Below are positions 3,675 through 46,299 of a stretch of DNA of 46,299 bases, one piece after another (the stretch's first letter is position 1; each line of letters starts with the position of its first letter). Source of the DNA: Pseudomonadota bacterium (GTDB lineage: Bacteria; Pseudomonadota; Gammaproteobacteria; JAKAQQ01). The DNA lies in NCBI GenBank assembly GCA_021785265.1, contig JAJYFY010000005.1, positions 1-46,299 of the forward strand, in the 5' to 3' direction. The translations under genes were made by a program, and so were the position numbers. The notes below the pieces were generated by a model that ran no database searches, was not told where the DNA came from, and was given only the letters and a program-made list of their open reading frames with translations.

Positions 3675-3773
3675 TGGGAGTCCTCTGCATGCCCGAAATA
3701 CGGAAATGCGAGCTGCCTGGCAAGGGCTACCCGGGTGAGGGGGTGAAGGAAGCCGGTGGCAAAGCGCTCGCCC
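3675..3773. repeat. 99-bp direct repeat, right copy
   Basis: Identical to 1-99 in the same orientation. Together the two copies bracket a segment of about 3.6 kb holding the ppiD fragment and module copy 1. The sequence just upstream (3593-3674) is non-coding and may belong to the same repeat, since the left copy is cut by the window edge. Confidence 0.9.
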
Positions 3774-4259
3774 GACGAACCGGAAGCGGGTGGAGGCGGC
3801 ACGGCGGGACGAGCGGGCAAAAAGAGGCGACGTCCGGGATATGTACGGAACGTGGTGAGGTTGATCCGACGCGCATAAGCGTGAGCGGCGTCCGTCTAGG
3901 GAGTTGTCATTTTTTAAGCGGCCTTTTTATCCTGCCGCTGCGGGTTCAAATCGACCGCGCCGACGGGTGTCCAGTTGTGTGTACGGCCCTGGCCCGCGTC
4001 CCGGATATCTCGCCTTCGCCGCTTCATAGAGGGCATGACGTTTCGCTAGGGCGCATGATCCTCACCCCGGTAACGCTGGGCCGGAATGACGACGCGAACC
4101 GAAGAGGCGAGAGTTCCCGAAAGGACAGGCGAGGCGCCGAAGATGGGCCAGTAGTCCGCGAGGCGTCGCCTCGCAGCTGAGGCTCGCACGGCGTCATCCG
4201 GGCGAACGAAATCGGAGGATCATCTGATGGAGCGGGGGGTTGAACACCGCGACTTGGGG
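3774..4259. other. Gene-poor gap with small hairpins, no recognised gene
   Basis: No open frame here resembles a known protein. Around 3912-3935 there is a short inverted repeat (AGCGGC, then GCCGCT after an 11-base loop). A tRNA-like GGGTTCAAATC lies near 3945, but its flanks do not pair as a T-arm. At 4125-4185 there are GC-rich repeated blocks (GGCGAGGCGCC and GCGAGGCGTCGCCTCGC) that could fold. Since fabI ends at 4260 on the other strand, this lies 3' of fabI. I see no clear terminator. Confidence 0.4.
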
Positions 4260-43435: not shown

Positions 43436-43636
43436 TCAAGCGGTGCCAAAGCCATAGTCAATGGACTGTGGCGTAGCCCCCGTCTTCGCGGCTTGCAGAA
43501 TCTCGATGCCGACGACATGACCCGCCTGGTCAAGGTCCAGGATCACTCCCGGTCTGGTCTCCTCGCACTCGCTGACGGGATGATCGCTGATCCGCAAGGT
43601 CAGGGTATCGGTTTCCGGGTCGTAGCGTACTTTCAT
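43436..43636 (-). CDS. DUF2283 domain protein
   Basis: This 66-residue protein has the DUF2283 pattern: MKVRYDPETDTLTLRISDHP near the start, then GVILDLDQAGHVVGIEILQA. Such proteins often sit next to DUF4258 or other putative toxin genes in mobile regions, and their function is unknown. No intact partner is visible: upstream (43637-43781) there is only a 145-bp gap before the divergent resolvase. GGAGAA precedes the ATG by about 10 bp. Confidence 0.8.
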   Translation of the reverse strand: MKVRYDPETDTLTLRISDHPVSECEETRPGVILDLDQAGHVVGIEILQAAKTGATPQSIDYGFGTA

Positions 43637-43781
43637 AGCGTTGCGTTCTCCAGTACTTCGGGATCTTGCGGGTCTGGTAAACGGTCGTTTGATGGACAGC
43701 CCGCCGGGACACAAATTAAGGGGGGTAAAGCCTCCGTTTGGTGTTAGATTACTCGTCAGCTTTTCAATGTCGTGAAAACCT

Positions 43782-44357
43782 ATGGCATCCCATCGACTGG
43801 GCTACGCCCGGGTCTCGACCGAGGACCAGAGTCTGGACCTGCAGCGTGACGCCCTCGGGCAGGCCGGATGCGACCGGATCTATGAGGAGCGGGCCAGCGG
43901 GAAAAGCACCGATCGGCCCGAGCTCGACGAATGTCTGGTGGATCTCCGCCCGGGAGATCGCCTGATCGTGTGGCGACTGGATCGGCTGGGCTGCAGTCTG
44001 CCCGATCTGGTCCGCATCCTGGGCGAGCTCGAGCAACGGGGCATCGGCTTCGAGAGTCTGGCCGAACGCATCGAGACGGGGAGTGCCACCGGGAAGCTGA
44101 TTTTCCATGTGTTTGCCGCCCTGGCCGAGTTCGAACGGAATCTGATCCGGGAGCGGACCCAGGCCGGCCTGGCCGCCGCCCGGGCGCGGGGGCGCTCCGG
44201 GGGGCGGAAGCCCAAGATCGGCGAGCGGGAACGTCGCGAGATTCGGGCGCTTTACGAGTCCAGAACCATCGCGGTGTCCGATATCGCACGGCGTTATGGT
44301 GTCTCACGCACGACGCTTTACAAGCACCTGAGCGAAACAGCACCTCTGGGGCGTTGA
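43782..44357 (+). CDS. Serine recombinase (resolvase/invertase family)
   Basis: Small serine recombinases resolve cointegrates or invert DNA through a 5'-phosphoserine intermediate. The 191-residue protein has the nucleophile Ser12 in LGYARVSTEDQSLDLQRDAL and the catalytic Arg set including LIVWRLDRLG. It also has the long E-helix region (AALAEFERNLIRERTQAGLA) and a C-terminal helix-turn-helix (TIAVSDIARRYGVSRTTLYK). It is full-length. No cognate transposase of the Tn3 type is in the window. A res or inversion site would be expected in 43637-43781, but I cannot define one. Confidence 0.93.
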   Translation: MASHRLGYARVSTEDQSLDLQRDALGQAGCDRIYEERASGKSTDRPELDECLVDLRPGDRLIVWRLDRLGCSLPDLVRILGELEQRGIGFESLAERIETGSATGKLIFHVFAALAEFERNLIRERTQAGLAAARARGRSGGRKPKIGERERREIRALYESRTIAVSDIARRYGVSRTTLYKHLSETAPLGR

Positions 44358-44540
44358 AACCCGGCGCCGACCGCAGGGGGGCGGGGGCTTATGCTAAAGC
44401 CTGTATTAAGTCAACTGTAAGGATGACCGTCCCTATGGGTTTTTGAGTCTTTGACGAGGCGCTGGCGCACCGTACCGGTACCCCCGACACGTTCCCGATG
44501 ATAACATCTGGAAAATGCCCCGAGATTGGATTATCCTGTG

Positions 44541-44596
44541 TTTAACAAGACCCGCCACGCCTCTCCACGGAAGCGCACCAGGGCGGGTTGTTTTTT
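44541..44596 (+). ncRNA. Structured RNA candidate upstream of the abi gene
   Basis: AACAAGACCCGCC (44544-44556) pairs with GGCGGGTTGTT (44582-44592), giving an 11-bp stem with a 2-base bulge. The 25-base loop can form a small inner stem (CGC/GCG). A T6 run follows at 44591-44596, like a Rho-independent terminator. TATCCT at 44533 could be the -10, so transcription would start at the foot of the stem. A conserved 'abiF RNA' motif has been described upstream of abiF-type genes; whether this matches its consensus I cannot test. A plain terminator of the upstream resolvase is the main alternative. Confidence 0.45.
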
Positions 44597-44612
44597 GCGC
44601 GGTGCTAGCCCC

Positions 44613-45000
44613 ATGAAGTACGCCAAGCCCGCATTATCGCTGGACGAGCAGATCGACCAGCTGGCCCGCCGGGGCATGCACATCCCTGATCGCGAAAGCG
44701 CCACCCACACCCTCCGGCATATCAACTACTACCGCCTGCGCGCCTACTGGCTGCCCTTCGAAATTCCGTCCGAGGTCGGTGGAGACCACACATTCCGCCC
44801 CGGCACCGCATTCCCGGACGCCGTTGCGCTGTACGCCTTTGATCGCCGCCTGCGGCTGCTGGTCATGGACGCCATCGACCGCTTCGAGGTGTCGTTGCGC
44901 ACCCGCTGGGCGCATGTGCTGGCCATGCGTCACGGCCCGCATTGCTACCTAGACGTCAATCTGTTCCGCAGGCCGCGCGAGCACGAAAAGTGGATGTATC
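44613..45000 (+). pseudogene. Abi_2 (AbiD/AbiF-type) abortive-infection protein, 3'-truncated
   Basis: Abi_2-family proteins abort phage infection. The preserved N-terminal part has the family landmarks: YAKPALSLDEQIDQLARRGM, HTLRHINYYRLRAYWLPFE and LYAFDRRLRLLVMDAIDRFE, then VSLRTRWAHVLAMRHGPHCY. Similarity stops near REHEKW (about 44990), after which the frame runs into unrelated sequence and ends at 45023. Family members are about 300 residues long, so more than half is lost. The start at ATG 44613 has no clear RBS. Confidence 0.8.
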
Positions 45001-45169
45001 CAAGTACCGGTGGTATCCGGTGATCGGGTTGGGGCTGTTTTATCCGGCAGGGACAGGGAGTGCAGATGGAGGTTTGTATCCCTGGGTGGTGGCGGATCTG
45101 GGGAACGGGCATCCGGATGTTATTGGGATTCATCGTTTCAAGGGGATGATGATTATTTTGTATGGGGAG
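45001..45169. other. Unassigned 170-bp segment between abi fragment and IS3 element
   Basis: This stretch is less GC-rich than its surroundings. One frame, open from before 45000 to 45208, reads KYRWYPVIGLGLFYPAGTG and then GGLYPWVVADLGNGHPDVIG. It looks protein-like but I do not recognise it. It is probably the tail of another gene brought in when the abi gene was broken. Confidence 0.35.
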
Positions 45170-45230
45170 TGGAGTGCCCCCGATTTTTCGGACCGAAGTC
45201 AGGTTTAGGATAGCCAGATGGGGGTACGAG

Positions 45231-45491
45231 ATGAAGAAGCGGTATTCGGAAGAGCAGATCGTCAAGATTCTGGGCGAAGCGGCTGGGCACGGTATGCCCG
45301 CGACGGCGCGCAAGTACAACGTATCGGAGCAGACGCTGTATCTGTGGCGCCGGCGGTTCGAGGGGATGGAAGTTCGCCAGGTGGTCGAGCTCAAGCGCCT
45401 GCAGCAAGAGAATGCGCGGCTGAAGAAGCTGGTGGCCGAGCGGGATCTGGAGCTTGAAGTGGTGAAGGAGATCGTCGCAAAAAAACTCTGA
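45231..45491 (+). CDS. IS3-family transposase OrfA (helix-turn-helix)
   Basis: OrfA binds the element's ends and regulates transposition. The 86-residue protein has the HTH (KKRYSEEQIVKILGEAAGHG, KYNVSEQTLYLWRRRF) and a leucine-zipper-like coiled coil (VVELKRLQQENARLKKLVAE). I chose ATG 45231 at the conserved MKKRYSEEQ. The last codons overlap the frameshift site. Confidence 0.93.
   Translation: MKKRYSEEQIVKILGEAAGHGMPATARKYNVSEQTLYLWRRRFEGMEVRQVVELKRLQQENARLKKLVAERDLELEVVKEIVAKKL
45479..45485 (+). promoter_or_regulatory. Programmed -1 frameshift site (A7) of the IS3 element
   Basis: Seven consecutive A residues occur two codons before the orfA stop. In frame the sequence reads GCA AAA AAA CTC TGA; slipping back one base gives AAA ACT CTG AGC GTG TCG, which enters the orfB frame. 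This is the standard IS3-family mechanism for making the OrfAB transposase. Confidence 0.75.
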
Positions 45492-45493
45492 GC

Positions 45494-46299
45494 GTGTCGG
45501 CACGGCGAGAGTGTGCCCGGCACGCGCAACACTGCGGGGTCAGCCAAGTGCGGGCGTGCCGGATATTTCGTACTGCGCGTTCGACGTTGCACTACGAAGC
45601 GAAACGCCCGTCCCAGGAGGCGGCGCTGGTTGAATGGATGCGCAAACGGGTAGGCGAGCAGCCCGATTGGGGCTATCGGCTGGTCTGGGGGCGTGCCCGC
45701 AATCAGGGTTGGCACGTCAGCCTCAATCGGGTACACCGGCTATGGCAGCAATACGCCCTGCAGCAGCCTCAACGGGTGCCGCGGCGCAAGCTGGTCACCG
45801 GGGCGAAGCTCACTCCCGCGCCACGGTTGCGCAATCACATCTGGTGCTATGACTTCGTGCATGATCGGGACGCGGCGGGGCGGGTCATTCGCTGCCTCAC
45901 TGTGAAGGACGAAGCGAGCGCCTATGCGCTCGCGGTGGTGCCCGCCCGTGCGTACAACGCGGCTGACGTGCGTGCCGTTCTCAAGCGGCTCGTCCGGGAA
46001 TATGGTTATCCGGCGTATCTGCGCAGCGACCGGGGCAGCGAGTTCATGGCGGCCGATCTGCGGGAGTGGCTCGCGGCGAATCGTATCCAACCTGCTTATA
46101 TTGACGCCGGCAAGCCTTGGCAGAACGGATCGAGCGAGAGCTTCAACGGTACACTGCGCCGGGGTTGCCTCAATCGCTACGAGTTTCACGGCCTTGAGGA
46201 CGCAAGAATTCGGATGGAGCAATGGCGGCGGATCTACAACGAGGTCCGCCCACACAGTCGGCTGGGCTACTCGCCACCCGCCTCAGCCTACTTCCTGGA
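45494..46299 (+). CDS. IS3-family transposase OrfB (DDE integrase core), partial
   Basis: OrfB carries the retroviral-integrase-type catalytic domain. Read from about 45494 (GTG, or by -1 frameshift from orfA), the open frame continues to the window end without a stop. It contains SARRECARHAQHCGVSQV, an HTH-like region, GYRLVWGRARNQGWHV, and the DDE triad: Asp in WCYDFVHD, Asp in YLRSDRGSEF, Glu in NGSSESFNGTLR. The C-terminal RIYNEVRPHSRLGYSPP is also present. Only the last few residues are missing. It appears intact. Confidence 0.92.
   Translation, partial: MSARRECARHAQHCGVSQVRACRIFRTARSTLHYEAKRPSQEAALVEWMRKRVGEQPDWGYRLVWGRARNQGWHVSLNRVHRLWQQYALQQPQRVPRRKLVTGAKLTPAPRLRNHIWCYDFVHDRDAAGRVIRCLTVKDEASAYALAVVPARAYNAADVRAVLKRLVREYGYPAYLRSDRGSEFMAADLREWLAANRIQPAYIDAGKPWQNGSSESFNGTLRRGCLNRYEFHGLEDARIRMEQWRRIYNEVRPHSRLGYSPPASAYFL

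Follow-up and report, generated by a model that had tools for sequence, protein, structure and literature searches.

Among the closest described counterparts of the locus analysed here is AbiF-RCd22 of C. difficile phi027, where RCd22 and abiF share a promoter and most transcripts end before the toxin (PMC12373285). RCd22 counters AbiF both in cis and in trans, in trans by binding the toxin, and the RNA antitoxin of C. difficile AbiF also attenuates the toxin gene (PMC12373285). Toxicity of C. difficile AbiF depends, according to the same paper, on the conserved residues R202 and H207, which line up with PbAbiF R210 and H215. In a review (PMC12737573), each PbAbiF monomer is said to bind one RNA. 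Papers tie the RNA-antitoxin family of the abiF RNA to the origin of Cas13.

The stretch of DNA that we examined (46,299 nucleotides, henceforth the window) is the whole of contig JAJYFY010000005.1 (label G000:C93), from a genome of 1.78 Mb that is split into 125 contigs and 85% complete. The following features lie near its right end:

44509–44537, plus strand: promoter-like element, weak, TGGAAA-17-TATCCT (matrix scan; spacing to the hairpin in relatives)
44551–44588, plus strand: abiF RNA motif (RF03085), putative antitoxin RNA (Rfam, held-out model, covarying pairs)
44588–44596, plus strand: T-tract 3′ of the hairpin, likely terminator (sequence; relatives)
44613–45023, plus strand: truncated AbiD/F (Abi_2) open reading frame, 136 codons (Pfam, PADLOC, our own profile)
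45035–45169, plus strand: piece of a gene for an FG-GAP-like repeat protein, to which the abi fragment is joined (identity to an ORF of genome G006)
45231–46299, plus strand: IS3-type element, with orfA at 45231–45491 and orfB from 45494 to the contig end

Very probably, this locus is what remains of an AbiF (AbiD/F) toxin–antitoxin module, the toxin of which was cut by a rearrangement while the antitoxin RNA was kept. AbiF with its RNA has already been published (PMC12373285), and the window probably holds a degraded copy of that known system, not a new kind. Transcription from about 44545 would yield a short RNA that folds into the abiF hairpin and terminates at the T-tract it carries; the toxin gene would be reached by occasional read-through only. 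From the published work on AbiF we infer that the folded RNA would bind the AbiF protein as an antitoxin, that it would attenuate the toxin gene, and that the intact ancestor of the module would have been toxic. The rearrangement would have cut the toxin after about codon 128, joining it to the FG-GAP-like fragment with the IS3 element adjacent, and would have removed the HEPN catalytic motif. What is left of the toxin should therefore have no RNase activity, which would leave the module defused.

Comparison with AbiF-RCd22 (PMC12373285) brings out the common plan: an abiF RNA before an Abi_2 gene, an upstream promoter for the two together and a terminator before the toxin. In RCd22, however, the motif occurs twice and the terminator is a hairpin apart, whereas the window has one copy, in a hairpin with its own T-tract; and the AbiF-RCd22 toxin is intact while that of the window is truncated. 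The window fragment aligns (E 1.1e-14) to residues 7–126 of the 300-residue chain of PbAbiF, the structure of which is known with its RNA (PDB 8vz6); R210 and H215 (PMC12373285) lie beyond the aligned part and have no counterpart in the fragment. Relatives are found at two rhizobial plasmid loci (NZ_CP118612.1 and NZ_CP104991.1), about 60% identical to the window fragment, with an abiF hairpin upstream that has a longer inner hairpin than that of the window and with intact toxins of 303 and 299 aa, respectively, carrying RNICAH. In the same class, the AbiF locus G072:C84 is 59% identical over residues 2–128 of the window fragment; its RNA is as long as that of the window and its stem lies 61 nt from the start codon (62 in the window), but its toxin is intact (299 aa). 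Antitoxin RNAs of type III systems of the ToxIN kind consist of tandem repeats. The window RNA, in contrast, is a single short hairpin of the AbiF kind. Where the initial annotation saw the order promoter, RNA, terminator, protein of type III toxin–antitoxin loci and of the abiF motif, the abiF half of the comparison is borne out by RF03085 and by our held-out model; ToxIN-like repeats and a separate terminator are not there.

The hairpin at 44551–44588 (plus strand) reads CCCGCCACGCCTCTCCACGGAAGCGCACCAGGGCGGGT, then TGTTTTTT. The Rfam model of the abiF RNA, a scan with which had been proposed in the initial annotation, matches it over its full length (1–37 of 37), scoring 38.1 bits where the gathering cut-off is 37, a margin of only 1.1 bits (E 0.0018 over the whole window, 1.2e-5 over 301 bases); RF03085 finds nothing else in the genome at E up to 1. 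The ATG of the Abi_2 frame, at 44613, stands 62 nt past the first stem base, and the layout from RNA to gene is the same in relatives. RNAfold gives 11 outer pairs, seven of them contiguous (A44550–T44588, then CCCGCC with GGCGGG) and the other four, AACA with TGTT, past a 2-nt bulge. Stem, T-tract and abi start are thus where they had been placed by eye, but the four distal pairs are unconserved. What lifts the hairpin above chance is the family match, with RF03085 and the held-out model, rather than its folding energy, which is ordinary (z −0.64; 50 of 200 shuffles are equally stable). A terminator scan of 43500–46299 did not return the hairpin; the loop limit of that scan is 3–8.

Upstream hairpins were gathered from 33 AbiF loci, with hairpin starts picked by eye: besides the window and a second copy in its genome, the set comprises 28 loci of other genomes and three on plasmids. 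A model, R1, was built from 28 of these; neither the window nor the second copy was used for it, nor were three divergent hairpins. With filters off, R1 gives the window RNA 55.1 bits (E 1.7e-12) over 44548–44599, the runner-up in the window reaching 7.7 bits; hence one motif copy in the window. Over the genome, two matches are strong, that in the window (E 6.8e-11) and C56:4800–4861 (44.8 bits, E 3.6e-8), and three further ones at E 0.36 or worse. The structure comprises seven outer pairs and three inner ones (an inner CGC/GCG helix). It is formed in 96.1% of the cells of the 33-locus alignment, a percentage that is favoured because the structure was derived from the row of the window, in which, by the same token, all ten pairs form. 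Changes on both sides are seen for eight of the ten conserved pairs across the 33 loci. None of 500 shuffles reaches any of five measures, and slid structures drop to 36–51% paired. The unpaired conserved letters also match in the window RNA. Both the match and the pairs are direct readings of the DNA: the small RNA that had been spotted by eye is confirmed, and takes its place in an RNA-antitoxin family. Conservation of the full 11-pair stem was rejected, all four distal pairs forming in one of the 33 loci, namely the window. Independently of R1, RF03085 was applied to 32 other abi loci: in 21 it finds a match (E up to 5) immediately ahead of the gene, and eight of these matches reach the cut-off; the remaining 11, the second copy of the window's genome among them, have no match at that E.

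The putative promoter of the initial annotation is a weak one: a matrix scan, using sigma-70 frequencies, retains TGGAAA-17-TATCCT, equalled or bettered in 4.7% of shuffles, while a consensus promoter scan found none. From the −10 end to the stem there are 13 nt, compared with 11–14 nt in 31 of the 33 loci. The T-tract, TTGTTTTTT at 44588–44596, has its like everywhere, with five to seven T in the eight bases directly 3′ of the hairpin in all 33 loci. Contrary to what had been supposed, no separate terminator follows the RNA: the abiF hairpin itself bears the T-tract, so that antitoxin and terminator may form one element.

The protein half had been described as truncated, and indeed its identity and its truncation are both clear. 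Pfam Abi_2 (PF07751) matches at E 5.9e-25 (89.1 bits against a cut-off of 25.6), at profile positions 2–96 of 184 only; the PADLOC AbiD match covers positions 2–119 of 277. A profile of 29 relatives deemed intact by their length (288–353 aa) aligns over model positions 3–129 of 302, homology ending at residue 128 (about 44996). RNxx[AS]H lies at residues 201–233 in all 29 of them; this HEPN catalytic motif, of the RNxxAH type, is missing from the window ORF, homology stopping before the motif region. The truncation and the loss of the motif, too, are read directly from the DNA. When the C-terminal half of the toxin was sought elsewhere in the genome, the best E was 0.08. Shuffling the letters of the abi half gave a mean of 2.8 stops, with none in 5.7% of shuffles, which is weak evidence that the frame was still coding recently. 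A scan of genome contigs with the fragment gave two relatives.

The genome of the window has a second abiF-RNA/AbiF locus (L058, C56:4800–5125), within which contig C56 (5125 bases) ends, 85 codons past the start. Its RNA has an inner hairpin of a type distinct from that of the window, so that two AbiF modules of different types have reached this genome. The C56 RNA resembles those of G005 and G003, both genomes from the same family: G005, the toxin of which is intact, and G003, where downstream of the RNA (35 bits) no toxin was found; a transposase-like ORF, recognized by eye, lies there on the other strand.

Antitoxin RNAs without an intact toxin are by no means peculiar to the window. In a class survey, R1 was run on 369 genomes, giving 40 matches of at least 40 bits, and a toxin was sought within up to 1400 bases downstream of each: it was intact for 24, partial or broken for nine (among them the window, as well as C56 and G314, where a contig end interrupts the gene) and not found for seven. 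A phylum survey on 398 genomes gave 33 matches passing E 1e-6, of which 30, all above 41 bits, had not yet been counted; here 17 toxins were intact, ten partial or broken and three not found. For the 70 RNAs together, 41 toxins are intact, 19 partial or broken and ten not found, so that 29 of 70 RNAs are without an intact toxin, with the caveats that in G238, G272 and G419 a single toxin serves neighbouring RNAs and so is counted twice, that sequencing errors could account for the broken genes of G310, G285, G330:C7 and G650, in which both halves are present but in different frames, and that G692 leaves just 369 bases to the contig end. Short AbiF remnants were recognized by eye in at least two of the "not found" loci (G081:C20 and G393:C83). 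R1 matches below 34 bits, many about 30 bases long and resembling plain terminators, were dropped; of 47 R1 matches, seven at 34–40 bits were classified but stand outside the 70. Conversely, an upstream hairpin precedes 28 of the 29 intact toxins (weakly in L033 and L034), L037 being the intact toxin that has none. The proportions are rough, because the toxin set was found with the N-terminal half of the window and R1 was trained on toxin-adjacent RNAs, yet the asymmetry fits the rule that an antitoxin can go only once its toxin is gone, and is what the logic of antitoxins predicts.

These orphans are, to our mind, the part of the result worth following, for the census yields a natural set of orphan RNA antitoxins with which to ask about their upkeep as immunity genes. 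One may speculate, at long odds, that toxinless abiF RNAs form a recurrent class, selected as trans immunity against AbiF of mobile elements or sister loci, or else put to new use in attenuating defence genes next to them, those for type I restriction subunits for example; the window, its toxin recently cut, would be an early member. In a selection of loci where the toxin is absent or broken, Pfam placed type I restriction genes 3′ of the RNA, HsdR in G232 and G080, HsdS in G427 and G541, and Fic then HsdR in G509; for RNAs below 40 bits, it found Fic in G176 and AbiEii in G189:C8. This association may only reflect the usual location of AbiF, since an intact AbiF on plasmid pNS6003 sits among restriction genes as well, after those of a DNA methyltransferase and of a restriction subunit S and before a helicase gene. 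The titles and abstract openings that were searched, with few subscription journals among them, revealed no paper on orphan abiF RNAs. At L101:173–1886, an abiF RNA match of lower score (37.2 bits), with no AbiF toxin, is upstream of a pair formed by an AbiEi-like gene (below cut-off) and AbiEii. L091 and L092 (G122:C146 and G122:C279) are near-identical toxinless abiF RNAs facing, by eye, an integrase-like ORF on the other strand; the G122 genome also has two intact AbiF loci.

Could the window RNA, then, still work as an orphan antitoxin in trans, against the second AbiF locus on C56 or against AbiF toxins of plasmids or phages? This has the same anatomy as a degraded module and differs from it in present function. 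We consider it unlikely, despite the retention of all ten conserved pairs, the presence of that second locus, the recurrence of RNAs without intact toxin and the ability of RCd22 to act in trans (PMC12373285). The C56 RNA differs in its inner hairpin and precedes a toxin start of its own, and so needs no help, and many genomes with orphan RNAs lack an intact AbiF match. Moreover, high-scoring RNAs are seen by construction, so that retention is no evidence of selection, and the abi frame being still open, the loss may be recent.

The remains of a rearranged AbiF module also have to be weighed against an artefact, because the contig comes from a fragmented genome and the break could be a mis-join. 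Immediately after the break, the fragment at 45035–45169 shares 62% identity with a portion of an ORF of 489 aa (FG-GAP_3) in G006, a genome of the same family; the 88-aa ORF that spans it has no Pfam match. In the IS3-type element, orfA carries HTH_Tnp_1, two of the eight plasmid matches listed are annotated as IS3 family transposase, and orfB was named by eye. Foreign FG-GAP-like sequence at this place means that abi was joined to unrelated DNA, not simply split by the insertion sequence. An assembly in 125 contigs, 85% complete, with this contig ending within an IS element, lends some colour to a mis-join hiding a real locus with an intact toxin, but a search of the genome with 44960–46299 gave nothing at E up to 0.01 apart from the segment itself, which leaves no repeat to explain the join, and no toxin C-terminus was found in the assembly; we regard this as improbable.

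Least of all do we credit, and here we reject, a plain terminator resembling the abiF RNA by chance: its GC-rich stem with T-tract, its ordinary folding energy and a score barely over the Rfam cut-off would suit one, but the held-out model (55.1 bits; E 1.7e-12 in the window, 6.8e-11 in the genome), the position 62 nt before an AbiF start and the matching unpaired letters speak against it.

As for the surroundings, just upstream of the abiF RNA are a serine resolvase-type gene (43782–44357, plus strand) and a DUF2283 gene (43436–43714, minus strand), and far from it, at 3729–3896 of the window, Rfam finds group-II-D1D4-3, a part of group II introns (58 bits). Among relatives, a tRNA gene lies roughly 230–420 bases upstream of the AbiF start in L011, L012, L013 and L014, as at island insertion sites.
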